Source: a bacterium
GTDB taxonomy: Bacteria; KSB1; UBA2214
NCBI GenBank assembly: GCA_029560815.1
Contig: JAKQKF010000515.1
Span: 1-20,736 of the forward strand
Reading direction: 5' to 3'
Length of the DNA: 20,736 nucleotides
Below the pieces are notes generated by a model. It was not told where the DNA came from, did not search any database, and saw only the letters and a list, made by a program, of their open reading frames with translations. Numbering within the stretch: the stretch's first letter is position 1; every line of letters begins with the position of its first letter. The position numbers and the translations under genes are program-made. This document shows, piece by piece, positions 417 through 18,911 of the stretch.

Positions 417-1340
417 CTAATTCTTCTCCACCTCGATGTCGAGGTTGATCTTGAGATCCTCAAGCTCCTCCCGCAGCTCCTCGAGGTCTTCGCGCAGTTC
501 CTCCATGGTCTCCCGGCCGAACGGCCAGCCGCTCCCCTCCAGCTGGATGCGGAAATTCCTCTCCGGGCGCTCGGGCAGTTCCACCTTGACGCTCTGTGAT
601 TGTCCTTTGCGCAGGAAGGTGACCTCCTGCCCGGCGGCTTCGTTCTCCTCGATGGCGTCTGCGACCTCCTCCACCTTGCCCACCTTCTTGCCGTTGACGG
701 CGGTGATGACATCGCCCGCCTTCAGACCGGCAGCGGCCGCGGCGCTCTCTTCATCCACCCTGGTCACCAGCACCCCCTCACCCTCTCCGGTCTGGAAATA
801 TTCGGCGAGGTCACGATTCATCTCCTGCAGCTGCACCCCCATGCGACGGTTCTTCTGCATCCAGAAACCCTGCAGCGGCCGCAGCTCTTTCTGCCGCTCA
901 AAGCGTTTTCTCCTCTGGTCCGGCATCACCTGGACGTTCTCATCGCGTACAACCCGGCGTTCCTGCAGCACGGCGGTCAGAGTGATCTTTTTCTTTTCGC
1001 GCAGGACGAGAAGCTTCACTTCGTCGCCCGGCTTCATCTTGCGGACGTCGCGGGTCACGTCATCGGCATCGCGCACGGTCCGGTCCTGCAGCTTGATGAT
1101 GATGTCGTTTTCGCGCAAGCCCGCCTTGTCAGCGGGTCCGTCCTTGACCACCTCCTGGACGAGTGCGCCTTCTTTCTCGTCCCAGCCGCTCTCCTCACCG
1201 GCGTCGCTGAGGTAGACGCCCAGCCAGGCGCCACCTTTGACAACGACTCTGGTTTCGATCTGCTGGGCAGTGGCGGCGCCTGCGGCCAGGAGAATCCCAG
1301 CCAGCAGGGCGATCCCCGCCCGTTCATACCATCGTCTCAT
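417..1340 (-). CDS. Exported double-PDZ-domain protein without a protease domain
   Basis: This is a 307-residue protein. Residues 1-25 form a Sec-type signal peptide (basic MRRWYER, then a hydrophobic stretch ending ATA), so it should act in the periplasm or be exported. PDZ 1 spans about 39-125 (WLGVYL carboxylate-binding-type loop, then GPADKAGLRENDIIIKL). A basic linker covers about 126-165. PDZ 2 spans about 167-257 (MGVQLQE, then AAAAGLKAGDVITAVNG). The tail at 277-300 is a Glu/Leu/Arg heptad-like coiled coil. The PDZ domains resemble those of DegP/DegQ, but there is no trypsin-like domain and no Ser-protease motif, so a peptide-binding adaptor or scaffold is more likely than a protease. 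The start is supported by GGGAGG just upstream of the ATG. A TATAAT lies at 1366-1361 on the same strand, with no convincing -35. The target is unknown. Confidence 0.8.
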   Translation of the reverse strand: MRRWYERAGIALLAGILLAAGAATAQQIETRVVVKGGAWLGVYLSDAGEESGWDEKEGALVQEVVKDGPADKAGLRENDIIIKLQDRTVRDADDVTRDVRKMKPGDEVKLLVLREKKKITLTAVLQERRVVRDENVQVMPDQRRKRFERQKELRPLQGFWMQKNRRMGVQLQEMNRDLAEYFQTGEGEGVLVTRVDEESAAAAAGLKAGDVITAVNGKKVGKVEEVADAIEENEAAGQEVTFLRKGQSQSVKVELPERPERNFRIQLEGSGWPFGRETMEELREDLEELREELEDLKINLDIEVEKN

Positions 1341-2900: not shown

Positions 2901-3109
2901 CAATTAGAGGCTTCACTCTCTTTGAGCCGATCCCACATAGTAAAAAATGACTGAGACAAACCACACCCCCAAATTCCTTCGCTTCACCCACATCCTTGTA
3001 TTTCAGGATCCAGCGTCATTGCATGGACGGCATCATGGTGCACCCGCACCGCAAGTCTGCTGCGGCGTTCCGCCGGCAGCGTCTCAAGAGCAAAAGCACT
3101 CAAAAAAGT

Positions 3110-3113
3110 GAGG
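3110..3113 (+). promoter_or_regulatory. Ribosome binding site that sets the trehalase-like start
   Basis: GAGG sits 6 bp before the ATG at 3120. It overlaps the alternative in-frame GTG at 3108, which has no ribosome binding site of its own, so the ATG is preferred. Confidence 0.6.
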
Positions 3114-3119
3114 TTGGGA

Positions 3120-4271
3120 ATGAGTCAGAATTTTCATGCCATGATCCCAGAGATCAAATCGCGCATCAAGGAAGAGTGCGTGCGCGAGATGACTCAGGAT
3201 AACGAATCCCTCATCGGATTGCCCTATCCCTACGTCATCTCCGGCAAAGGTAAAACGGAAGCCCTTCATTACTGGGACACTTACTTCATCAATCTGGGAT
3301 TGCTGCGCATGCGCATGATCGACTATGCGCGCCATAATGTCGAAAACCTCATCTTTCTCCAGCGCAAATTCGGCTATGTGCCCGCCTCCAACGCCCGGGA
3401 TATGGTCGCTCACTCCCAACCCCCCTTTCTGCCCTGGATGGTGCGCGATATCTACCGCGCCACCGGCGAGAAGGAGTGGCTGCGCCGCATACTGCCCGAG
3501 GTGGTCCATGAATTCAAATTCTGGACCAGCAAGCCGCATACCACCCCGACCGGGCTTTACCGTTATCATCCGGCCAAAGAGGGGACGGATGATCCGGCCG
3601 TCCTGGCCATGGCCGAGTCGGGATGGATCGATTCGCCCCGCTTTACCGATCCGCGCAGCTTCAATGCCATCGACCTCAACGCCTTGCTCAGCCGCAACGC
3701 CAAGATGATCTACGACCTTCAGGTGGAGGCCGAAGGCCACGGCGACGAACAGCTCCTGCAAAAGAGCGCCGCCATGAAAAAGATGATGGAATTCTGCTGG
3801 GACGAGAGTGAAGGCTTTTATTTTGACAATAATTTCGAGAACAAGCAGCTGAGTCCGGTCAAGAGCATGGCCGGTTTCATGCCCCTCTTTGTCGAGATCG
3901 TCGACGAGACGCGCGCACAGCGCATCGCCAGCCACCTCAAGGATTTCACCGCACCCGGCGGCCTCACCCTGACCGATCAATCCTATGGCAAGACGAACTC
4001 GCTCTGGAACGCCCCGCTCATCCAGGCTCCCTTTGTCTACACCACCCTCAAAGGCTTGTGCGATTATGACTTTATGGAGGATGCCGCCGATATCGGCACC
4101 AACTGGCTCACCATGGTCCAGGAGAATTATGCCGCCACCGGCGAGCTCTGGTCCTGGTACAATGCCGCCGACCGCTCCGTCCGCCATCCCGACGGCATCG
4201 AAAACAGTCCCCTGCTCGCGCTGACCGCCGGGGTTTACGCCGAAATGGTCGACTGCCTGGGTCTGGACTAG
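3120..4271 (+). CDS. Trehalase-like (alpha/alpha)6-barrel glycosidase, cytoplasmic
   Basis: A 383-residue six-hairpin glycosidase closest to GH37 trehalase and its GH63-type relatives. Visible family blocks: ALHYWDTYF near 48-56, the helix GYVPASNARDMVAHSQPPFL near 84-103, AESGWIDSPRF at 165-175, and QSYGKTNSLWNAP near 293-305. QENYAATGE near 337-345 aligns with the segment that carries the general base in trehalase. No signal peptide is present, so it should act on an intracellular sugar such as trehalose, or on a related glycoside. It is shorter than the usual 500-550 residues. In family members the catalytic acid Asp directly follows GW in this motif; here that place is Ile170 and an Asp comes one residue later (171), so substrate or activity may differ. 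SelB follows after 22 bp, in the same unit. Confidence 0.7.
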   Translation: MSQNFHAMIPEIKSRIKEECVREMTQDNESLIGLPYPYVISGKGKTEALHYWDTYFINLGLLRMRMIDYARHNVENLIFLQRKFGYVPASNARDMVAHSQPPFLPWMVRDIYRATGEKEWLRRILPEVVHEFKFWTSKPHTTPTGLYRYHPAKEGTDDPAVLAMAESGWIDSPRFTDPRSFNAIDLNALLSRNAKMIYDLQVEAEGHGDEQLLQKSAAMKKMMEFCWDESEGFYFDNNFENKQLSPVKSMAGFMPLFVEIVDETRAQRIASHLKDFTAPGGLTLTDQSYGKTNSLWNAPLIQAPFVYTTLKGLCDYDFMEDAADIGTNWLTMVQENYAATGELWSWYNAADRSVRHPDGIENSPLLALTAGVYAEMVDCLGLD

Positions 4272-4293: not shown

Positions 4294-6189
4294 ATGCCCA
4301 TCATCATCGGCACCGCCGGTCATATCGACCATGGCAAATCCGCCCTCGTCAAGGCCCTGACCGGAACCGACCCCGACCGCCTCGCTGAGGAGCACGAGCG
4401 CGGCATGACCATCGACCTGGGTTTCGCCTTTCTCAGCCCCGAGATCGCTCTTATCGATGTGCCCGGTCACGAAAAATTCATCAAAAACATGGTCGCCGGG
4501 GTGAGCACCATCGATCTCGCCATGCTGGTCGTCGCGGCCGACGACGGGGTTATGCCGCAGACCCGGGAACATCTCGACATTCTCTCGCTGCTGCGGCTGC
4601 AGCGCGGCTTGATCGTCCTCAGCAAGGTTGATCTGGTCGATGCGGAGCTGCTCGAACTCGTGCGCGAAGAGGTGCGCGAGGCGGTCAAGGGCACATTTCT
4701 CAGCGGCGCCCCGATTTTTGAGGTCTCGTCGCTCACGGGGCAGGGATTGCCGGCGCTGCGCGAGGCCCTGCTGGCCGCAGCGGCGGCGATGCCGATGCGG
4801 CCGGCGCGCGGCACTTTCTGGCTGCCGGTGGACCGCTCCTTCATCATCAAGGGATTCGGCACCGTGGTCACCGGCACGCTCCTCGCCGGCAGCGCGGCCG
4901 TGGGCGAAACTCTGGAGCTGCTCCCGGCCGGCCGCCCGGTCAAAATACGCGGCCTGCAGCAGCAGGGAAAAAGCGTCGAACGCGTGAGCAGCGGCTATCG
5001 CACCGCTGTCAATCTGCAAGCCATCAGCCGTGAGGAGGTGGGGCGCGGCGACGTCCTCGCCACGCCCGGGCAGTTCAAGGCTTCCCGGCTCATGGATGGC
5101 CGCCTGGATCTGCTCAAGAGCGCAAAGAAGGAGCTGCTCAACCGTGCGCGCGTCCGTCTCCACCTTGGCACCCGTGAGATTATGGCCCGCGTCAAGCTCC
5201 TCGACACCGAACGCCTCAAGCCCGGCACCTCCGCTCTCGTCCAGCTCCTTCTGGAAGAGCCCGCAGTCGCCATGCGCCGCGAGCCCTTTGTTGTGCGCCA
5301 CTATTCCCCCGCCTTCACCATCGGCGGCGGCATGGTTCTCGAGGCCGAAGCGGCCGTCCACCGCCGCTTCGACAAAAAAGTGCTTGAACATCTCAAGGCC
5401 CTCGAGCATCCCGATCCGATGGAGATGATCACCTCCGCCCTGCTATCCAATCCCTTCGCCCTGCAGAACGGTCAAGAGATCGCCGCGCGCTGCGGACTGG
5501 AGCAGGAGCAGACTGAAGCGCTGCTGGCCGGCGGCCTGGAGAGGGGGGAAATCCTCGCCTTCGGCGCCGGCGCCAAAAGCCTCTACGTCCACCGCGACGG
5601 CTTCGCCCAGCTCCAGGAGCTGCTTGAGTCATCACTTGAGGCCTTTCACAAACGTGAGCCCCTCAAGCCGGGCATGAGCAAAGCCGAGCTGCGGGCCCAG
5701 GCGGGCGGCGGGGTCGCGCCCAAACTCTTCGACCAGGCCCTGGCCGCCCTTGTGGCCGGGCAGCGCGTGCTGGAGCAGCCGCAGTGGGTCAAGCTCGCCG
5801 GCCACACCATCCGTCTCGGCGCTGCCGACGAAAAGATCGTGGAGCGCATCACTGCGCTGCTCGCCGCAGCCCCCTTCTCTCCCCCCGACGAAGCGGAACT
5901 CGGCCGGGAGCTGGGCCTCTCCGCCCATGAGCTCCGGCGCCTCCTCGGCGCGCTGCAGGGCATGGGGCGTATTTTCCGGCTCGAAGGCGATCTCTACTTC
6001 CTGCACAGCGCCCTGACTGAGGCCGACCGCCGTCTGCAAGAGTACGCCGCCGGCAGGGAGGAGATCTCAGTGAGCGAGTTCCGCGAACTGCTGGGCACAA
6101 CGCGCAAATATGCCGTGCCCCTGCTCAACTGGTTCGACCATACCGGCCGCACCGAACGCATCGGAGACAACCGCATCATCAACCGCTGA
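4294..6189 (+). CDS. selB: Selenocysteine-specific translation elongation factor SelB
   Basis: SelB binds GTP and selenocysteinyl-tRNA and delivers it to UGA codons followed by a SECIS hairpin. This 631-residue protein has the normal length and order. The GTPase domain has the P-loop AGHIDHGKS at 8-16, DVPGH at 55-59 and SKVD at 110-113 in place of the common TKxD/NKxD. Two beta-barrel domains lie at about 175-370, including [13 protein letters not shown], the EF-Tu domain 2 signature. Four winged-helix modules fill about 380-631. The last one, with [17 protein letters not shown] near 602-618, is the SECIS-binding module and is well preserved. A GAGGGAGAGGG tract precedes the ATG by about ten bases. 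It follows the trehalase-like gene by 22 bp; no functional link between them is evident. The presence of selB implies selA, selC and selD elsewhere in the genome. Confidence 0.95.
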
Positions 6190-6363: not shown

Positions 6364-7626
6364 ATGCAGATTTCCGGACTCAAGTACGGCGCGCAGCTGC
6401 TGGAACTGGTGGAGTTCCCCTATGCCCCCTTCCTCACTGCCGATGCCACCAAAGAGGAAATTCAGAACCTCCTCAATGCCCATAAAAAAATTGTTATCAA
6501 ACCTTTCTTCAGCGGCGGCGTCGGCAAAAAGGGAAAAGCCGGGTTGATCCGCATCGTTGACAACGTTCACGATGCCCTGCTGGCAAAGCGCGACCTCTAT
6601 TTTGCCACCCATCAATATGGATCCAAAAGCGTGGAGGCCAACGGCGTCACCTATGAGGCCTTCATCCCTTCGGAGATCGAAGTCTATTTCAGTATCACCG
6701 CCTCGACCCTGCACCGCAAACCGATCTTCACCATCAGCCCCTGGGGCGGCGTGGATATCGAATCCCTGCCCGAAGATAAAAAAAAGCTCACCTGGATCGA
6801 TCCTTTCATCGGCCTCAAATCCTTCGACGTCACCAACGCCCTCATGGACACCGGCTGCCCGGAGGCCTTTATCTCGCCTCTGGTGGCGAATCTGCCCAAA
6901 CTCTGGGGACTCTATGACAATTACGGCCTGACCACCCTGGAGCTCAATCCGATCCGTATGGCCCGGCAGGACAATCGCATCGTCCCGGTGGCCTGCGATC
7001 TCAAGGCCGCCTTTGATCAGGACAACCCCGCCTGGAAGCGCCTTGGCCTCCCCCGGACCGTCTTCCAGTCCGATATCACCCCTTTTGAGGCGCAGATCAA
7101 CCAGTTGCGCACCTATCAGGGTCAGAGCGACGTGCTCGAGCTCAATCCCACCGGCACGATCATCCCCTTCATGTTCGGGGGCGGCGCCAACTCGGCGGCC
7201 ACGGAGACCCTCGGCAGTTCCGCCATTTTCGCCTCGGATTTCGGCGGCAATCCGCCCTACGAAAAGATGTATGACATCGGCCGCATCGTCTTCAAGAGCT
7301 GGCTCAGCCGCGCCAACGTGCTGCTCATCATCGGCGGCAAAGCCAATAACACCGACATTTACGTCACTTTCAAAGGTATCTTTGATGCCCTGCGCGACCA
7401 TGTGGCCGCCCACGGCCCCCAGCCGGTCTACGTCGTGGTCGGCCGCGGCGGCCCCAATCTGATCAAGGGGATGTTTTACGCCAAGGATATCCTCGACACC
7501 CTCAAACTCCCCTACAAGATGTTCGGCTACGACACCTCGATGATCCAGGTGCTGGAGTACGCCAAGCGGATCGACCGGTGGTGGGCCGATAAGGGCAAAA
7601 AAGAATACGAAAAGAAGAAGGCGTGA
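6364..7626 (+). CDS. aclB: ATP-citrate lyase small subunit (ATP-grasp and citrate-binding)
   Basis: This 420-residue protein corresponds to the N-terminal part of animal ACLY, the plant ACLA subunit and the Chlorobium AclB subunit. It uses ATP to activate citrate, which the large subunit converts to acetyl-CoA and oxaloacetate. Residues about 1-245 form the ATP-grasp domain: KIVIKPFFSGGVGKKGKAGL at 42-61 and the metal-binding LELNPI at 192-197. Residues about 255-400 form the citrate-binding domain: FMFGGGANSA at 269-278, LLIIGGKANNTD at 320-331 (compare GGSIANFTN of ACLY) and RGGPN at 361-365, where Arg361 matches the citrate-binding arginine of ACLY. The sequence is clearly divergent from the animal and Chlorobium forms. 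AGGCAGG precedes the ATG. The large-subunit gene follows after 3 bp, so the two are probably translationally coupled. Subunit letters differ between organisms. Confidence 0.85.
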   Translation: MQISGLKYGAQLLELVEFPYAPFLTADATKEEIQNLLNAHKKIVIKPFFSGGVGKKGKAGLIRIVDNVHDALLAKRDLYFATHQYGSKSVEANGVTYEAFIPSEIEVYFSITASTLHRKPIFTISPWGGVDIESLPEDKKKLTWIDPFIGLKSFDVTNALMDTGCPEAFISPLVANLPKLWGLYDNYGLTTLELNPIRMARQDNRIVPVACDLKAAFDQDNPAWKRLGLPRTVFQSDITPFEAQINQLRTYQGQSDVLELNPTGTIIPFMFGGGANSAATETLGSSAIFASDFGGNPPYEKMYDIGRIVFKSWLSRANVLLIIGGKANNTDIYVTFKGIFDALRDHVAAHGPQPVYVVVGRGGPNLIKGMFYAKDILDTLKLPYKMFGYDTSMIQVLEYAKRIDRWWADKGKKEYEKKKA

Positions 7627-7629
7627 GCG

Positions 7630-10353
7630 ATGAGACAGCAGAAGACGAAACCCTTTCCCTATTTTGTCGGCATCCATTCCCTGGAAGAGCTGGTCACTAA
7701 AACCTCCAAAGTCTGTGTGATTAATATCCTCGGCAACGAGAGCCGCAAGGTCACTCCGGTCTCGCATGAATACAGCGGCGGCAATATTGTCGCCGGCGTC
7801 CAGTACGGCCGCAAGGGTTCCCTCGAGACCAGGGCCGGCAATATCCCGGTCTACAGCAGTATCCGCGATGTGATCCAGAGCGGCATCTTTTTTGATATCG
7901 GCGTCATCTATCTGCCCCCCGCCGCGGTCGGCCAGTCAGTGGCGGAGCTGGTCACCTATAACGAGGCTCTCAAACGCATCGTCATCGTCACCGAAAAGGT
8001 GCCGACGCGCGATTCGCGTAACATCCGCTTCGTCTGCCAGGAGGCCGGCGTCGACGTCATCGGCGCCAACTGCCTCGGCGTGGCCAACGTCTGGGACCAT
8101 GTCCGCGTCGGCGGCGCCCTCGCCGGCGACCATCCCGAGGAGGCCCTGCGCCAGGGCTCGGTGGCCATCCACTCCAACTCGGGCAATTTTACCACCACCA
8201 TCGCCGAGTACCTGCGCACTGCCGGCTTCGGCCTCAGCACCGCCGTCAGTTCGGGAAAGGATGTCTATATCCATTTCGCCCTGCCCGAATTCCTCTACGC
8301 CGCCCAGAACGATCCGCGCACCAAGGCGATCGCCCTCTACGTCGAGCCGGGCGGTTACTATGAAAAACAGGCTCTGGACTGGATCAAGGAGCGCCGCTTC
8401 GGCTTTAACAAACCCATCGTCGTCTGCGTCACCGGCCGCTGGAAAAAGGATATCCAGCGCTCATGCGGCCACGCCGGCGCCCTGGCCGGCGCCGGCGATG
8501 ACGCCATCTCCAAGGAGCAGTGGTTCGACGACTATTTCGGCGTGCCCGCCTACGATCCCGACAACCCCCGGGTGAGCAAGCGCGGCGTGCGCGTCTCCTC
8601 GATCCAGCACTTCCCCGAGGCGATGAAGGCCGTCTTCGAGGCGATCGATGAAGCGCCCGATTTCGCCTCCAGCGGCGACCTTTCGCTCAAACTCTGGATC
8701 AGCGATAACTGGCTGGCGCTCCCCCCGGAACTGGACACCCCCGTGGTCAGAGCAATGTCACCCTATGACCACCAGATCCGCGAGATCAACATCCAGGTCG
8801 GGGCCAACTATCTGCGCCAGTCCATGGCCGACAAATCGGGCGCCTCGCGCATGGATCCCAAAACCCAGGTCTCGGAACTGCACGGCAAATCGATCCTCGA
8901 GCTCTCCAACTATACCATGGAGGAGAACATCTACTTCTCCCTGGCCAAGGTGATGCCCGATCCGGCCGATATCCCCACCATCAACATCCTGCTCAACCTC
9001 TTCCTCAAGATAGAAGAGCGGCGCATGGACCTGGTCGACCTGGCCCGCGCCAACGGCTGTACACCCAACGCCTACATCGGCTCCCAGATCGCCCTGATCG
9101 GCGACAAGCCTTTTCTGGCGCGCGCGCGCGAGGCGACGCGTATTCTCATCAACATGATCCGCGAGTTCGAAATCGACGAGCGCACCACCGATTTCCCCGC
9201 CGCCCTCGATATCTTCATCACCACCGAGCTGCTCACCAGCGCACCGGTGCGTAAAACCCCGGTCTCCGAGCTCCTGCTCAAAGAGATCAAACGCTGCCCG
9301 AAAAAATCCTTCCCCATCCGGGTGATCCAGCACATCATCCAGCTGGCCGAGAGCAAGGGGCTGCAGATTCGCGACAACTATGAGTTTTTCCTCGCCGGCA
9401 TCGCCATCTCCATGTTCTGGAAACCGATGCTCGAAAAACGGATCAGCCGCCAGGTGGCCGAAGACGCGGTGACCTATTTTTACATCATCTCGCGCATTGT
9501 CGCTTACTCAGTCATTGACCGCAAGAACAACAGCCACTGGCACGAACTCATCGACGCCAAGGTGAGCAACCTGCGCAGCAGTTTCACCGAAAACGCCTTT
9601 TCCGTGCTATTTAACCGCAAGCCGACCGAGAGCGAACTCTTCGAGTTCAAGGCCCTGATCGGCCTTACTCTTACCAACGGTCCCGGCACCCTCTCTGCCA
9701 AGGGGGCCAAGGAATCGGTGAGCGCCCGCAACCATATCGCCACCGCCTTTCTCGGTTTCCTCACCAACACCGGCCTGGCGCACGGCGGCAACGGCTTTGA
9801 GGCCGTCGGCTATCTGCTCGAGCAGTTCAAAAACGGACTCGCCGACCCGGGCAGCCCGGACCACGGCCTGGACCTCAAAAAAATGGCCAACACCGCAGCC
9901 CGCGCCTACCGGGACTATAAAAAGAACGAAAAGGAGAGCGGTGAGCTCCAGTACGCGCGCATCCCCTGCATCAACCATCCGGTTTTCAAGGGCAACGATG
10001 TCAACATCGATCCGCGCGAGCAGTATATCCGCGGCGAGTTTGACAAGCGCGGCATCCGGAATCTTTTCCTCGACTTTTACCACCACCTCGTCGAGGAACT
10101 CTTCTTCGAAGGCGCGACCCGCAACATCTTTTGCGTCAACATCGATGCCGTCCTGGCTGTCATCATCCTCAAGCTGGTCTGGAAGGACCTGCAGGAGGGC
10201 CGCTTGACCAGCAAGATGGTGCAGGACCTCAGTTTCACCCAGTTCCTCTACGGCCGGGCCATCGGCGTGGCCGCCGAGATCGCCGATCACCGGGACCGCG
10301 GCACTGACATGGACTGCCGCACGCCCCAGGACCGGGTGCAGTTTGTTCTCTAA
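7630..10353 (+). CDS. aclA: ATP-citrate lyase large subunit with two tandem citrate-synthase-like modules
   Basis: This 907-residue protein is the partner of the preceding ATP-grasp subunit. Residues 1 to about 345 are a succinyl-CoA synthetase alpha-like domain with a CoA-binding Rossmann part, the SNSGN turn (about 187-191) and the phosphohistidine loop CGHAGALAGAG at 279-289, His281 being the phosphorylated residue by homology. Canonical large subunits then have one citrate-synthase homology domain and end near residue 600. Here two follow. The first (about 405-640) keeps the fold pattern (MEENIYF, TPNAYIGSQIALIGDKPF, YIISRIVAYSVIDR) but lacks the catalytic His and Asp. The second (about 641-907) has SARNHIATA (698-706), AHGGNGF (717-723), NHPVFK with His783 (compare GHRVK in ACLY), VNIDAV with Asp839, and a final GRAIGVAAEIADHRD. 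I read this as a pseudo-dimer within one chain. The duplication is inferred by eye; family membership is secure. Confidence 0.85.
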   Translation: MRQQKTKPFPYFVGIHSLEELVTKTSKVCVINILGNESRKVTPVSHEYSGGNIVAGVQYGRKGSLETRAGNIPVYSSIRDVIQSGIFFDIGVIYLPPAAVGQSVAELVTYNEALKRIVIVTEKVPTRDSRNIRFVCQEAGVDVIGANCLGVANVWDHVRVGGALAGDHPEEALRQGSVAIHSNSGNFTTTIAEYLRTAGFGLSTAVSSGKDVYIHFALPEFLYAAQNDPRTKAIALYVEPGGYYEKQALDWIKERRFGFNKPIVVCVTGRWKKDIQRSCGHAGALAGAGDDAISKEQWFDDYFGVPAYDPDNPRVSKRGVRVSSIQHFPEAMKAVFEAIDEAPDFASSGDLSLKLWISDNWLALPPELDTPVVRAMSPYDHQIREINIQVGANYLRQSMADKSGASRMDPKTQVSELHGKSILELSNYTMEENIYFSLAKVMPDPADIPTINILLNLFLKIEERRMDLVDLARANGCTPNAYIGSQIALIGDKPFLARAREATRILINMIREFEIDERTTDFPAALDIFITTELLTSAPVRKTPVSELLLKEIKRCPKKSFPIRVIQHIIQLAESKGLQIRDNYEFFLAGIAISMFWKPMLEKRISRQVAEDAVTYFYIISRIVAYSVIDRKNNSHWHELIDAKVSNLRSSFTENAFSVLFNRKPTESELFEFKALIGLTLTNGPGTLSAKGAKESVSARNHIATAFLGFLTNTGLAHGGNGFEAVGYLLEQFKNGLADPGSPDHGLDLKKMANTAARAYRDYKKNEKESGELQYARIPCINHPVFKGNDVNIDPREQYIRGEFDKRGIRNLFLDFYHHLVEELFFEGATRNIFCVNIDAVLAVIILKLVWKDLQEGRLTSKMVQDLSFTQFLYGRAIGVAAEIADHRDRGTDMDCRTPQDRVQFVL

Positions 10354-10380
10354 TTTTTTCAGGTGAAAGGGTGGCCGTGT

Positions 10381-11652
<1,272 letters not shown>

Positions 11653-12453: not shown

Positions 12454-14067
12454 CTATTTCACTCTGATGAACTCGATGCGGCGGTTGCGGGCGCGTCCCT
12501 CGGCGCTCTTGTTATCGGCGACGGGATAGCGGTGGCCAAAGCCGATCGCGGTGATGCGCTCCTCTTTCACCCCCTTGCTGATCAGGTAGCGCCGGACCGA
12601 CTCGGCCCGGCGCTCCGAGAGCAGCTGATTGGCCGCCGCTTTGCCGACATTATCGGTATGGCCGCGGATTTCCACAATCGCGGCGGGCTCGAGCAGCAGG
12701 GAATTGGCCACATCATCGAGCACGGGCAGGGATTCGGCGGTCAGATCGGCCTTGCCTGTCGCAAAGTTGACTCCCTGCAGGACCAGGGCGGTGCCGCTCT
12801 CTTCGGCCTGGGCGATCCGCCGGTCGTCCGGGCAGCCGTCTTCGTCCTCAAAGCCGTTCATGGTCTCGGGATCGCGCGGGCACTTGTCGCGCTCATCGGG
12901 AATGCCATCACCATCCGTATCGGAATCGGGGCAGCCGTCTTCGTCCATATAGCCGTTGACGGTCTCGGGCTGGTCGGGGCACTTGTCGACCAGATCGACG
13001 ATCAGATCGCCATCATTGTCGACGTCAGGACAGCCGTCCTGGTCCTCGAAGCCGTCGTGGTCCTCAGCCTTGCCGGGGCAGGCGTCGAGGGCATCCTCGA
13101 TGCCGTCCTGGTCATTGTCCGGATCGGGGCAGCCGTCCTCGTCCTCAAACTGGTCGAAATCCTCGGGTGCGTTGATACAGAGGTCCTGGGCGTCGGCGAT
13201 GCCGTCCAGATCGTTGTCGGGATCGGGGATGCCATCCTCATCCTGGAAGCCATCGAGGTCCTCCGGAATCAGCGGGGCAAGGTCTCTTACGTCGGGCACG
13301 CCGTCATTGTCATTGTCCGGATCCGGAGCGCCGTCGAGGTCCTGAAAGCCGTCCAGGTCCTCCGCATGGAGGGGATCGGCATCGAGGCGGTCGACGATGC
13401 CGTCCCGGTCGCGGTCCTGCTGATAGCTGATGTACCAGGTAACGGTGGCCAGCGCCTGGAGGTACTGTGAATTGATGTCATCCTGGCCGACGTTGTCACG
13501 GCGGAGATGAAGCAGGCTGGCAAATCGCGCCTGCAAATCGATGGAGAGGGCCGGATGGGGATAGAGTTCGAGCCCAAGTCCCTCGTAGAGCAGGCCGTTC
13601 TTGCGCCAGCCGCTGACGCGATCACCCCAGCGCCAGTAGTGGTCGCCCCAGAAGGTCACTTTCTCTCCGGTCAGGTAGCGCAGGTCCCAGAAGAGGATGC
13701 CGGTGCCGACCGTGAGGTAAGGTTTGACTGCGCCATTCTTGCTGGCGGTGATCCGGGCCCCGGCCGTCAGCGGAAAGATGAAAGTGCGGTGCATCTCATC
13801 AGGATCTTTCTGCCAGCGGGATCCCTCCCTGCTCGGTTTGAAGCTGCCATAGCCCAGGGAGCCCTCCAGCACGACATGGCGGCTGAGGCCGTATTTCAGA
13901 CCGAGCCCGGTGGCTGAGCCCACAGCGGCGCGGTCGGGCGCATCACCTAGAAATTTGACCGCGCTGGTATGCACGGTGATGCCGAAGCTTTTATCCCAGA
14001 TCTGCGCCTGCAGTGCGATGGGGATGAGAAGAGCGAGCTGGAGCAGCCTCCGATACGATTTACACAT
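12454..14067 (-). CDS. OmpA-family outer-membrane protein with TSP3 calcium-binding repeats
   Basis: A 537-residue protein. Residues 1-22 are a signal peptide (MCKSYRR, hydrophobic core, ALQAQ). About 23-215 show alternating aromatic and polar strands as in an 8-stranded outer-membrane barrel (GLGLKYGLSRHVVLEGSLGY). About 216-416 are thrombospondin type 3 repeats rich in DxDxDG, which bind calcium and form a stiff stalk. About 417-537 are the OmpA C-terminal peptidoglycan-binding domain, with VNFATGKADL, EIRGHTDNVG and LSERRAESVRRYL. The protein would span from the outer membrane to the cell wall. The frame is open 51 codons further upstream, but the ATG at 14067 begins the signal peptide and the earlier part is not protein-like. 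Only a weak GGGG precedes it, and no promoter of the local type was found. It ends at the shared terminator. Confidence 0.9.
   Translation of the reverse strand: MCKSYRRLLQLALLIPIALQAQIWDKSFGITVHTSAVKFLGDAPDRAAVGSATGLGLKYGLSRHVVLEGSLGYGSFKPSREGSRWQKDPDEMHRTFIFPLTAGARITASKNGAVKPYLTVGTGILFWDLRYLTGEKVTFWGDHYWRWGDRVSGWRKNGLLYEGLGLELYPHPALSIDLQARFASLLHLRRDNVGQDDINSQYLQALATVTWYISYQQDRDRDGIVDRLDADPLHAEDLDGFQDLDGAPDPDNDNDGVPDVRDLAPLIPEDLDGFQDEDGIPDPDNDLDGIADAQDLCINAPEDFDQFEDEDGCPDPDNDQDGIEDALDACPGKAEDHDGFEDQDGCPDVDNDGDLIVDLVDKCPDQPETVNGYMDEDGCPDSDTDGDGIPDERDKCPRDPETMNGFEDEDGCPDDRRIAQAEESGTALVLQGVNFATGKADLTAESLPVLDDVANSLLLEPAAIVEIRGHTDNVGKAAANQLLSERRAESVRRYLISKGVKEERITAIGFGHRYPVADNKSAEGRARNRRIEFIRVK
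12823..13359 (-). repeat. TSP3 tandem repeats, 99-bp unit
   Basis: Five full 33-codon units run from 13359 down to 12865, plus a partial sixth to 12823. Each encodes a version of (D/T)xxGFxDxDGxPDxDxDxDG followed by a short linker, mostly ending PE. Units 3 to 5 have gained a Cys pair (GCPD and CPxxxE). Period and sequence are well conserved, so copy number could vary by slippage or recombination. Confidence 0.85.
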
Positions 14068-14228
14068 GCCAGGCCCCGAAACAAGTATGGTGGTGTGATG
14101 GAGGAAAAGAGCGTTATTTCCGTACTTCATAGTACAAAAAAAGCAGGCGACTGCGTAAATAATCTCTTGCAGCCGCTGCCGGGATGCTCCGGAAGCCGCT
14201 AACTTTACGAGAGTTATCAAAAATTCGC

Positions 14229-14899: not shown

Positions 14900-15523
14900 A
14901 TGAAGGATAACTTTGTCATCACCATCGGGCGGCAATTCGGCAGCGGCGGCCACCAGATCGGCCGTAAGCTGGCCGGGGAGCTCGGAATCTCCTTTTACGA
15001 CAAGGAGCTCATCCGCCTCGCCTCGCAGCAGAGTGGCTTGAAAGAGGAGTTATTCGAACAGATGGATGAAAGGAGGCGGTTCAGCCTCTTCGGTGGCGTG
15101 CTGGGCTTGCGAGGCATCCCGGTGGAGGAGTATTATGCCGATTTCTACCTGAGTAACGAGACCCTTTTCAGAATCCAGGCCGATGTGATCCGCGAAATCG
15201 CCGGCAAGGATTCCGCCCTGTTCGTCGGCCGCTGCGCAGATTATATCCTGCAGAGTCATCCGCGCGCTTTTCATCTCTTCATCTGCGCGGATCTGGATGA
15301 CAGGATCAGCCGGGTCTCCAAACGCTTCAATCTGGCGGCGGGCAAAGCCGGAGAGCTCATCACGAAAACCGACAAGCAGCGCGCCTCCTTTTATAACCAT
15401 TTCACCAGCAAGATCTGGGGGGCGGTGGAGTCCTACCATCTCTGCATCAACTCGTCTTTTCTCGGCATCGAAGCAACGGTAGAGTTCATCCACCAGATGG
15501 CCGCCAGGAAATTCGCCTTGTGA
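14900..15523 (+). CDS. Cytidylate-kinase-like family protein
   Basis: A 207-residue P-loop protein of the cytidylate kinase-like family (Cytidylate_kin_2). The nucleotide loop is GRQFGSGGHQIGRKLA at 10-25, the modified P-loop of this family, followed by YDKELI (33-38). FVGRCADYIL (108-117) and a lid-like region with IxRVSKRF (136-143) come later. True Cmk proteins make CDP from CMP; this family is a divergent branch whose substrate is mostly not established, so nucleotide phosphorylation is inferred. A GGAGAGAGAG tract precedes the ATG. It ends 30 bp from the convergent patatin gene with no terminator visible between them. Complementary GC-rich stretches at about 14767-14815 could fold in its leader. 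Confidence 0.8.
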   Translation: MKDNFVITIGRQFGSGGHQIGRKLAGELGISFYDKELIRLASQQSGLKEELFEQMDERRRFSLFGGVLGLRGIPVEEYYADFYLSNETLFRIQADVIREIAGKDSALFVGRCADYILQSHPRAFHLFICADLDDRISRVSKRFNLAAGKAGELITKTDKQRASFYNHFTSKIWGAVESYHLCINSSFLGIEATVEFIHQMAARKFAL

Positions 15524-17750: not shown

Positions 17751-18911
17751 CTAGACCCCGCCGGCGGATTCCTTGATGACGTGGCGCGCGATCACGCCGC
17801 GCTGGATCTGGTTGGTGCCTTCATAGATCTGGGTGATCTTGGCGTCGCGCATATATTTTTCGACCGGATAGTCCTTCATATAGCCATAGCCGCCAAAAAT
17901 CTGCACGGCGTCGGTGGTGACGCGCATGGCGACGTCTCCGGCCAGCAGCTTGCACATCGCCGATTCGCGGCCGTAATCCCTGGCGCCGGCGTCGATCATG
18001 CGCGCTGTGGCGTAGACCAGCGCGCGCGCAGCTTCCACCTGCGTGGCCATGTCGGCGAGCATGAACTGGATGCCCTGAAAAGCGGATATGGGCTGGCCGA
18101 ACTGCTGGCGGGTGCGGGCATAGCGCACGGCATGGTCGAGAGCACCCTGAGCAATGCCGACCGCCTGGGCGGCCACGCCGGGACGCGAGCGGTCGAGGGT
18201 TTTCATGGCGATGACAAAGCCCATCCCCTCCTTGCCGAGCAGATTCTCCCGCGGGATCGCGCAGTCCTGAAAGACCACCTCGCAGGTGGCCGAGGCGCGG
18301 ATGCCCATCTTGTCCTCTTTTTTACCAAAGATCAATCCCGGTGTCCCCTCCTCGACGAGAAAGGCGGTAGCGCCGCGGGCCCCGCGTTTGGGATCAGTGG
18401 TGGCGATGACGGTGTAGTAGCGGGACACGCCCCCGTTGGTAATGAAATGTTTGGTGCCGTTGAGGATATAGTGGTCGCCCTCGAGCCGGGCAGTGGTCTG
18501 AATCGCTCCCGCGTCCGAACCCGCCTCCGGTTCGGTCAGGCAAAAGGCGGCGAGCCCTTCGCCGGCGGCGAGCACGGGCAGATGGCGGCGTTTCTGTTCC
18601 TCTGTTCCGGCGATAAGAATCGGAAATGTGCCGAGCGCCGTGCCGGCCATGGCCAGGGCGATACCGCCGCAAGCCCTGGAGAACTCTTCCGTGACCAGGG
18701 CCATCTCCGTAATGCCGCCACCCATGCCCTCGTACTCCTCCGGGATCCACAGGCGAAAAAAGTCCATGCGCGCCATCTCGCGGACGATGGGCCAGGGAAA
18801 TTCGGCGCTGCGGTCGTATTCAGCCGCCGCCGGCGCGATGGTACCGGCCGCAAATTCACGCGCCAGCTGCTGCAGGGTTGCCTGCATCTCGGTCAGATAA
18901 TAGTTCATCAT
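17751..18911 (-). CDS. Acyl-CoA dehydrogenase
   Basis: A 386-residue FAD enzyme that introduces the alpha-beta double bond in acyl-CoA and passes electrons to electron-transfer flavoprotein. Length and order are standard: N-terminal helical domain, the FCLTEPEAGSDAG FAD/substrate motif near 123-135, the middle beta domain, and the C-terminal helical domain with RQQFGQPISAFQGIQF and FGGYGYMKDYPVEKYMRD. The catalytic base is Glu364 in YEGTNQIQR, the position used by short- and medium-chain and butyryl-CoA dehydrogenases (not the isovaleryl type), so a short- or medium-chain acyl-CoA is likely. The first ATG (18911) overlaps the rnc stop as ATGA, which indicates translational coupling. No ETF genes are in view. 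Chain-length specificity cannot be read from the sequence. Confidence 0.93.
   Translation of the reverse strand: MMNYYLTEMQATLQQLAREFAAGTIAPAAAEYDRSAEFPWPIVREMARMDFFRLWIPEEYEGMGGGITEMALVTEEFSRACGGIALAMAGTALGTFPILIAGTEEQKRRHLPVLAAGEGLAAFCLTEPEAGSDAGAIQTTARLEGDHYILNGTKHFITNGGVSRYYTVIATTDPKRGARGATAFLVEEGTPGLIFGKKEDKMGIRASATCEVVFQDCAIPRENLLGKEGMGFVIAMKTLDRSRPGVAAQAVGIAQGALDHAVRYARTRQQFGQPISAFQGIQFMLADMATQVEAARALVYATARMIDAGARDYGRESAMCKLLAGDVAMRVTTDAVQIFGGYGYMKDYPVEKYMRDAKITQIYEGTNQIQRGVIARHVIKESAGGV

Follow-up and report, generated by a model that had tools for sequence, protein, structure and literature searches.

The window analysed here, a 20,736-nucleotide stretch of the genome of a KSB1 bacterium (contig JAKQKF010000515.1 of assembly GCA_029560815.1, forward strand), carries the genes for the two subunits of a putative ATP-citrate lyase (ACL). 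The small-subunit gene, aclB, ends 3 bases before the start of aclA, the gene for the large subunit, and the aclA reading frame begins with ATG and is uninterrupted over its 907 codons. AclA opens with a coenzyme A (CoA)-ligase domain, and its C-terminal half is predicted to hold two citrate-synthase homology (CSH) modules in tandem, a degenerate copy 1 and a conserved copy 2 (Table 1). Judged by its sequence, the protein is a member of the postulated type II ACL, a family that already had its name.

Table 1. Position in the window of the two ACL genes and of the domains and residues of AclA
Feature	Position	Strand	Basis
aclB, 420-residue small subunit, ATP-grasp and citrate-binding domains	6364..7626	+	Pfam PF16114 Citrate_bind 2e-18, PF08442 ATP-grasp_2 5e-13
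aclA (type II), 907-residue ACL large subunit	7630..10353	+	Full-length relatives including Magnetococcus marinus MC-1 and Endoriftia
SucD/CCS-type CoA-ligase domain, acyl-CoA-synthetase-like, residues 1-345	7630..8664	+	
His281 in GHAGA, CoA-ligase domain	8470..8472	+	His in 317/317
CSH copy 1, degenerate, residues ~400-630	8827..9519	+	
Beta-hairpin opening copy 1, residues 406-417	8845..8880	+	Secondary structure of full and copy-1 models
Phe587, opposite Asp839 of copy 2	9388..9390	+	hhalign register; Asp never in 317
CSH copy 2, conserved, residues 646-907	9565..10350	+	NF004869 651-851, E 9e-4; PF00285 in several relatives; one citrate-synthase profile (hhalign P 4.9e-5, 147 columns)
Asn683, replaces first catalytic His of citrate synthase/type I ACL	9676..9678	+	Asn in 317/317; aligned to His of AEHG
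His718 of HGGNG, common to citrate synthases (LHGG)	9781..9783	+	His in 317/317; aligned to LHGG
His783 (NHPVFKG), equivalent of GFGHRV/GIGHRV His	9976..9978	+	His in 317/317; profile alignment
Asp839 (NIDA), catalytic Asp equivalent	10144..10146	+	Asp in 317/317
Arg897 near C-terminus, proposed partner-site Arg	10318..10320	+	Arg in 317/317

AclA aligned end to end, at 46-48% identity, with the type II ACL proteins of Magnetococcus MC-1, M. massalia and Endoriftia (905-916 residues; P0166, P0214 and P0236), i.e., homology was found over the full length of about 900 residues, and the best 120 of 2533 relatives were 878-909 residues long. A genome scan confirmed 195 AclA relatives, from which 80 loci were kept, with hosts among Geothrix, Ignavibacteria, Calditrichota, Planctomycetota, Nitrospinota, Magnetococcales, Desulfobacter and others. 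As in the window, where aclB adjoins aclA, 77 of these 80 loci have an aclB match upstream in the same orientation (9-303 bases between the two matches); no aclB match was found at the other three (L040, L042 and L048). Conservation was read from an alignment of 317 sequences chosen by length. It comprises 77 of the 80 loci (the other three being cut off) and, from 241 listed proteins, the 240 that measure 881-959 residues, P0102 with its 878 residues being omitted; 306 of the sequences were distinct and 215 were at <90% identity. All 317 have the histidine of GHAGA, the phospho-histidine position in CoA-ligase domains of this kind. Among solved structures, the N-terminal 345 residues came nearest to the small subunit of citryl-CoA synthetase (6hxq). 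One host, the Melioribacteraceae metagenome-assembled genome (MAG) JALSNL01, has two distinct type II AclA genes on separate contigs (L021, 68% identical to that of the window, and L044, 51%), which represent either two paralogues or contamination.

Type I ACL, the two-subunit enzyme represented by Chlorobium AclA (6hxj), was considered as the identity of AclA and rejected. Its large subunit likewise consists of a CoA-ligase domain followed by CSH, but the 11 type I subunits compared measure 585-610 residues from the first Met (open frames of 611-624 residues) and hold one CSH, i.e., about 610 residues with one module against 907 residues with two. The excess of about 300 residues that the first-pass annotation had pointed out was therefore confirmed. 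The histidine of the ADHG motif, present in 11/11 of the type I subunits, is replaced by Asn683 in AclA, and type I ACL occupies a separate branch. In a tree of N-terminal domains with 53 rows (35 type II, 11 type I, all from one phylum, and 7 SucD), the three groups formed separate branches with support of 100/99, 100/99 and 98/92, respectively, after one SucD row read in a wrong frame (L133, branch length ~9) was left out; with this row in, the support for type II was 68/75. AclA did not group with type I in this tree and clustered with L004 and the KSB1 bacterium L002. Nitrospina relatives are found in the same tree. The AclA of the window lies outside the clade of Magnetococcus, in another that it shares with relatives from uncultured KSB1, Ignavibacteria and Geothrix.

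The name type II ACL was applied to such genes in PMC3522073, PMC6315080 and PMC6783814, and PMC3522073 and PMC6783814 credit it to Hugler and Sievert 2011; the remark in the first-pass annotation that it knew of no description of such an ACL is not borne out, the family having been named since 2011-2012. ATP- and CoA-dependent citrate cleavage is postulated for it. For tubeworm symbionts and magnetotactic cocci, the literature names type II ACL as the enzyme that cleaves citrate, and in Nitrospina, where the genes show very low similarity to known ACLs (PMC3578206), a low-similarity ACL was assumed. In Magnetococcus MC-1 the genes are Mmc1_3638/3639, and citrate cleavage was reported there with only these genes.

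Two citrate-synthase homology modules

The last 560 residues of AclA gave no Pfam match above the cut-off. The NCBIfam citryl-CoA lyase model NF004869 matched within copy 2, weakly and far below its own cut-off, and precomputed matches to the citrate-synthase family PF00285 are present in many AclA relatives. The duplication itself was deduced from profile comparison, in which an internal repeat was found in the C-terminal half with a score of 80.0 over 200 columns (E 2.6e-11). The maximum was 22.5 in 100 column-permuted controls and 34.9 in 100 block-permuted controls. Four pairs of segments that had been matched by eye in the first-pass annotation, as evidence that the two modules align along their length, were recovered in the profile register: MEENIYFSL with FTENAFSVL, TPNAYIGSQIALIGDKPF with SARNHIATAFLGFLTNTG, EFFLAGIAI with NIDAVLAVI, and FYIISRIVAYSVIDRK with FLYGRAIGVAAEIADHR. 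Both copies are also covered by the alignments with the proteins of MC-1, M. massalia and Endoriftia. Most of the repeat signal is carried by the clade of Magnetococcus (152 sequences; 194 columns, E 1.3e-10). A search for standalone relatives of copy 2 gave matches of which the best 120 of 457 start at scattered places between residues 422 and 679, most of them on short contigs; these are read as probable fragments of type II AclA, and no clean standalone single-module relative was found among these 120.

The proposed fold of copy 1 was supported by structure prediction, and the outcomes that the first-pass annotation had named as refuting its view, a model of residues 405-640 without a citrate-synthase fold or an assignment of that region to an unrelated family, did not arise. 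When residues 398-646 were modelled alone, a citryl-CoA-lyase/CSH fold was obtained whose top Foldseek match was 6hxp. All 50 rows listed by a second aligner were ACL, citryl-CoA lyase, citrate synthase or 2-methylcitrate synthase entries, with 8gre carrying another title and the same matched range as the Cit2 entries. In a fold search with the model of full AclA, matches to the N-terminal domain took up the results and little was gained on the C-terminal half; the full-chain model compared with ACL structures spanned about residues 12-902 at a root-mean-square deviation of ~18. The hairpin that opens copy 1 has no counterpart at the start of copy 2, where no strands were predicted. The fold of copy 1 also matches Si-citrate synthase (PF00285), at a lower score, and the LHGG, GHRV, NVD and Arg positions of that enzyme are found in copy 2. 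The closest solved relatives of the N-terminal domain and of copy 1, 6hxq and 6hxp, come from a system of separate enzymes with one lyase module, whereas in AclA the ligase and two lyase modules are predicted to share one chain.

The degeneration of copy 1 was deduced from its residues, and here too the first-pass annotation proved right. The column opposite Asp839 (Phe587 in the window) holds Leu, Val, Ile, Phe, Met, Tyr, Ala, Cys or Thr and never Asp (0/317), a gap lies opposite His783 in the profile alignment, and neither the catalytic His nor the catalytic Asp was found within residues 398-646. In an alignment of 91 sequences, 48/262 positions of copy 2 but 4/246 of copy 1 keep their residue in 90 or more. 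Ser403, Pro479, Asn480 and Gly491 are scattered conserved residues of copy 1. Profile comparison and model give good support to this anatomy, with an additional CSH module at residues ~400-645 that lost its catalytic residues.

In copy 2, His718, His783, Asp794, Arg796, Asp839, Arg876 and Arg897 are invariant (317/317). His783 and Asp839 occupy the positions of the type I GIGHRV and N(L/V)DG motifs, and the first-pass annotation was correct that this copy keeps both. It had overlooked a further catalytic histidine, the first in citrate synthase and type I ACL (ADHG/AEHG), which was present as ADHG in 11/11 type I ACLs and as A(D/E)H in 11/11 of one citrate-synthase set; a second set, in which the pattern matched 1/6, was left out of this count. 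In type II ACL this position is Asn683 throughout. Copy 2 thus has catalytic His, Asp and Arg equivalents (His783, Asp839, Arg876 and Arg897) with Asn683 in place of the first His, and because the asparagine is fixed in 317/317 the site, as read from the alignment, is not that of a textbook citrate synthase. The C-terminal Arg897 is presumably equivalent to the partner-site Arg of citrate synthase and ACLY, an assumption made by motif position.

No description of a duplicated citrate-synthase module was found in the open-access papers searched; an earlier description is possible, and within the literature searched the duplicated dead module looks new. Neither the fixed His-to-Asn change nor the exclusion of citrate synthase described below was mentioned in the same literature, in which neither was searched by name. 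The tandem CSH explains the extra length of type II AclA, and the analysis supplies residues at which this can be tested.

Citrate synthase in the host genomes

A full-length citrate synthase match was not found in 12/54 host genomes (2/12 and 10/42), several of which are MAGs, Re-type citrate synthase not having been searched. Of the 10/42, five had no citrate synthase match and five had weak partial matches (E 1e-9 or weaker). In one of these five, G047, three such matches lay in two short frames, outside a 900-residue frame. The 12 include the genomes of the four AclA proteins nearest to that of the window (78-95% identity), and in the genus of L004 citrate synthase was found in 0/2 genomes, that of L004 included. 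Five genomes of Geothrix and relatives (G001, G002, G003, G004 and G021) have a canonical citrate synthase match at a distance of a few hundred bases from the type II aclA match; the two run on opposite strands and their 3' ends face each other.

Among 19 genomes of the Desulfobacter latus genus, 13 have aclA and aclB, four have citrate synthase without aclA, and two have neither. Full-length citrate synthase was found in 0/13 of the ACL-bearing genomes, one of which has a 107-position fragment; part of the set consists of small, probably incomplete genomes, and the counts ignore kinship. ATP-citrate lyase was reportedly described in 1987 in Desulfobacter postgatei, in acetate oxidation with ATP formation, and a report of the same year is said to concern a reductive cycle in D. 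hydrogenophilus, both going by their titles. The simplest reading is that the 1987 Desulfobacter ATP-citrate lyase is type II ACL working in both directions. The mutual exclusion with citrate synthase would then supply a candidate gene, in a cultured organism, for that classic activity.

Proposed mechanism and alternatives

The explanation considered probable as a whole is that AclAB is a type II ACL, reversible and of alpha2-beta2 composition, in which the ligase works via phospho-His281, copy 2 is the lyase and copy 1 is a dead duplicate. AclB and residues 1-345 of AclA would use ATP via phospho-His281 to form citryl-CoA, which would be cleaved at a citryl-CoA-lyase site on copy 2 made up of Asn683, His718, His783, Asp839, Arg876 and Arg897. 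Copy 1 would have arisen by tandem duplication of the CSH module, the fold being kept and the site lost. In human ACL the CSH core is built of four modules, one from each of four chains (PMC10115795). As each type II chain brings two modules, a pair of chains would be enough to rebuild the four-module core for which type I ACL uses four. Live copies would pair across the chains and dead copies would take the other positions, giving two sites per core. A CSH module present in tandem, with one of the copies dead, bears on how the four-chain citryl-CoA lyase core is related to citrate synthase. A reversible ACL is the likely function of AclAB. In lineages without citrate synthase, probably including that of the window, type II ACL would be the sole link between citrate and acetyl-CoA plus oxaloacetate. 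The reaction, its direction, the stoichiometry and the pairing are all inferred. The combination of all particulars, i.e., a two-chain alpha2-beta2 enzyme, the fused dead module as half of the four-chain core, an Asn-based site, identity with the 1987 Desulfobacter enzyme, and action as an ATP-forming citrate synthase where citrate synthase is absent, including the lineage of the window, is offered tentatively as one possible outcome.

Several observations count against this explanation. The clade of the window alone (165 sequences) gave a repeat match of 38 columns (prob 38.7), the score of which, 34.7, did not exceed that of the best block-permuted control. Both copies fitted the type I CSH profile weakly (copy 1 P 0.025, copy 2 P 0.1), and with two citrate-synthase profiles copy 1 gave a weak fit or none (P 0.01 and 0.18); copy 2 gave P 0.0019 and 4.9e-5 with the same two, of which only 4.9e-5 is clear, and these three profiles comprise 11, 11 and 6 sequences, a size at which weak matches are uninformative. 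Ten controls run with these comparisons, made with reversed profiles and the N-domain, scored 11.8-20.0. Asn683 in place of a catalytic His could mean that copy 2 is altered or non-catalytic. For human ACLY, the CSH module in its entirety has been argued by one group to be allosteric (PMC10115795). No purified or solved type II ACL was mentioned in the literature read, where the family appears as named and uncharacterised. Finally, 42/54 host genomes also carry citrate synthase, among them that of the fifth-nearest relative (L043, 77%), so that ACL is not always the sole citrate enzyme and the use of type II ACL differs between hosts.

That residues 400-907 form one full-length citrate-synthase domain with insertions, the repeat being a by-product of helical packing, could draw on the Pfam citrate-synthase profile, which in some relatives reaches into copy 1 (profile positions 56-348, along 342 residues), and on an hhalign match of the whole region to citrate synthase (228 columns, P 3.6e-4). 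This was rejected as highly improbable because copy 1 modelled alone gave a complete fold. The first-pass annotation had proposed a fused pseudo-dimer with one active and one structural half. The dead extra module stands; the same-chain catalytic pair, in which copies 1 and 2 of one chain would make a dimer of the citrate-synthase type, live at one site and dead at the other, and a single alpha-beta pair would be enough for activity, is doubtful. The tandem arrangement and the fold of copy 1 suit such a pair, and Ser403, Pro479, Asn480 and Gly491 could line its interface. In citrate synthase and human ACL, however, an Arg near the C-terminus reaches into the active site of the partner. If this role is transferred to AclA, the invariant Arg897 would serve the dead site of a same-chain pair, and the live site would depend on the end of copy 1 (residues 629-650), which has no conserved Arg. 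It was therefore proposed, by analogy, that copy 2 pairs with copy 2 of the other chain, which suggests a structural role for the dead copy.

It is also conceivable, if unlikely, that both CSH modules are non-catalytic, the CoA-ligase part cleaving citryl-CoA and the CSH acting as a scaffold or allosteric CoA sensor. The fixed Asn683 agrees with this, as does the work on D1026A and R976E of human ACLY (PMC10115795), and a natural His-to-Asn change in 317/317 sequences is relevant to the disputed question of a catalytic role for the CSH site in ACL. The invariance of His783, Asp794, Arg796, Asp839, Arg876 and Arg897 nevertheless resembles that of a working site, while relaxed constraint looks like copy 1 (4/246 conserved positions against 48/262). 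Lower still was rated the probability that AclAB is another CoA-ligase/Claisen enzyme, acting, e.g., on a citrate analogue such as 2-methylcitrate. The low similarity to validated ACLs (PMC3578206), the unusual Asn683 and the naming of some relatives as citrate/2-methylcitrate synthase in databases would fit such an enzyme, but AclB has a citrate-binding domain, MC-1 was reported to cleave citrate with only these genes, and ACL and citrate synthase exclude each other in the Desulfobacter latus genus group.

Neighbouring genes

A DUF362 gene (10363-11652, +) begins 9 bases past the aclA stop. A DUF362 relative near aclA was found in only 3/80 loci (L001, ~10 bases downstream; L002, ~670; L003, ~750), so that co-transcription with aclA, which may occur, is perhaps limited to the nearest lineage. 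Upstream of aclB, a gene for the selenocysteine elongation factor SelB was observed (4294-6189, +), despite which an ARAGORN scan found no tRNA genes in the window. The remaining genes noted are those for a trehalase/MGH1-like glycosidase (3108-4271, +), a cytidylate-kinase-like protein (14900-15523, +) and an acyl-CoA dehydrogenase (17751-18911, -). By eye, a PDZ-repeat protein was recognised at 417-1340 (-), and an open reading frame of 588 residues at 12454-14220 (-) shows DxDxDG calcium-binding-type repeats followed by an OmpA-like C-terminus.
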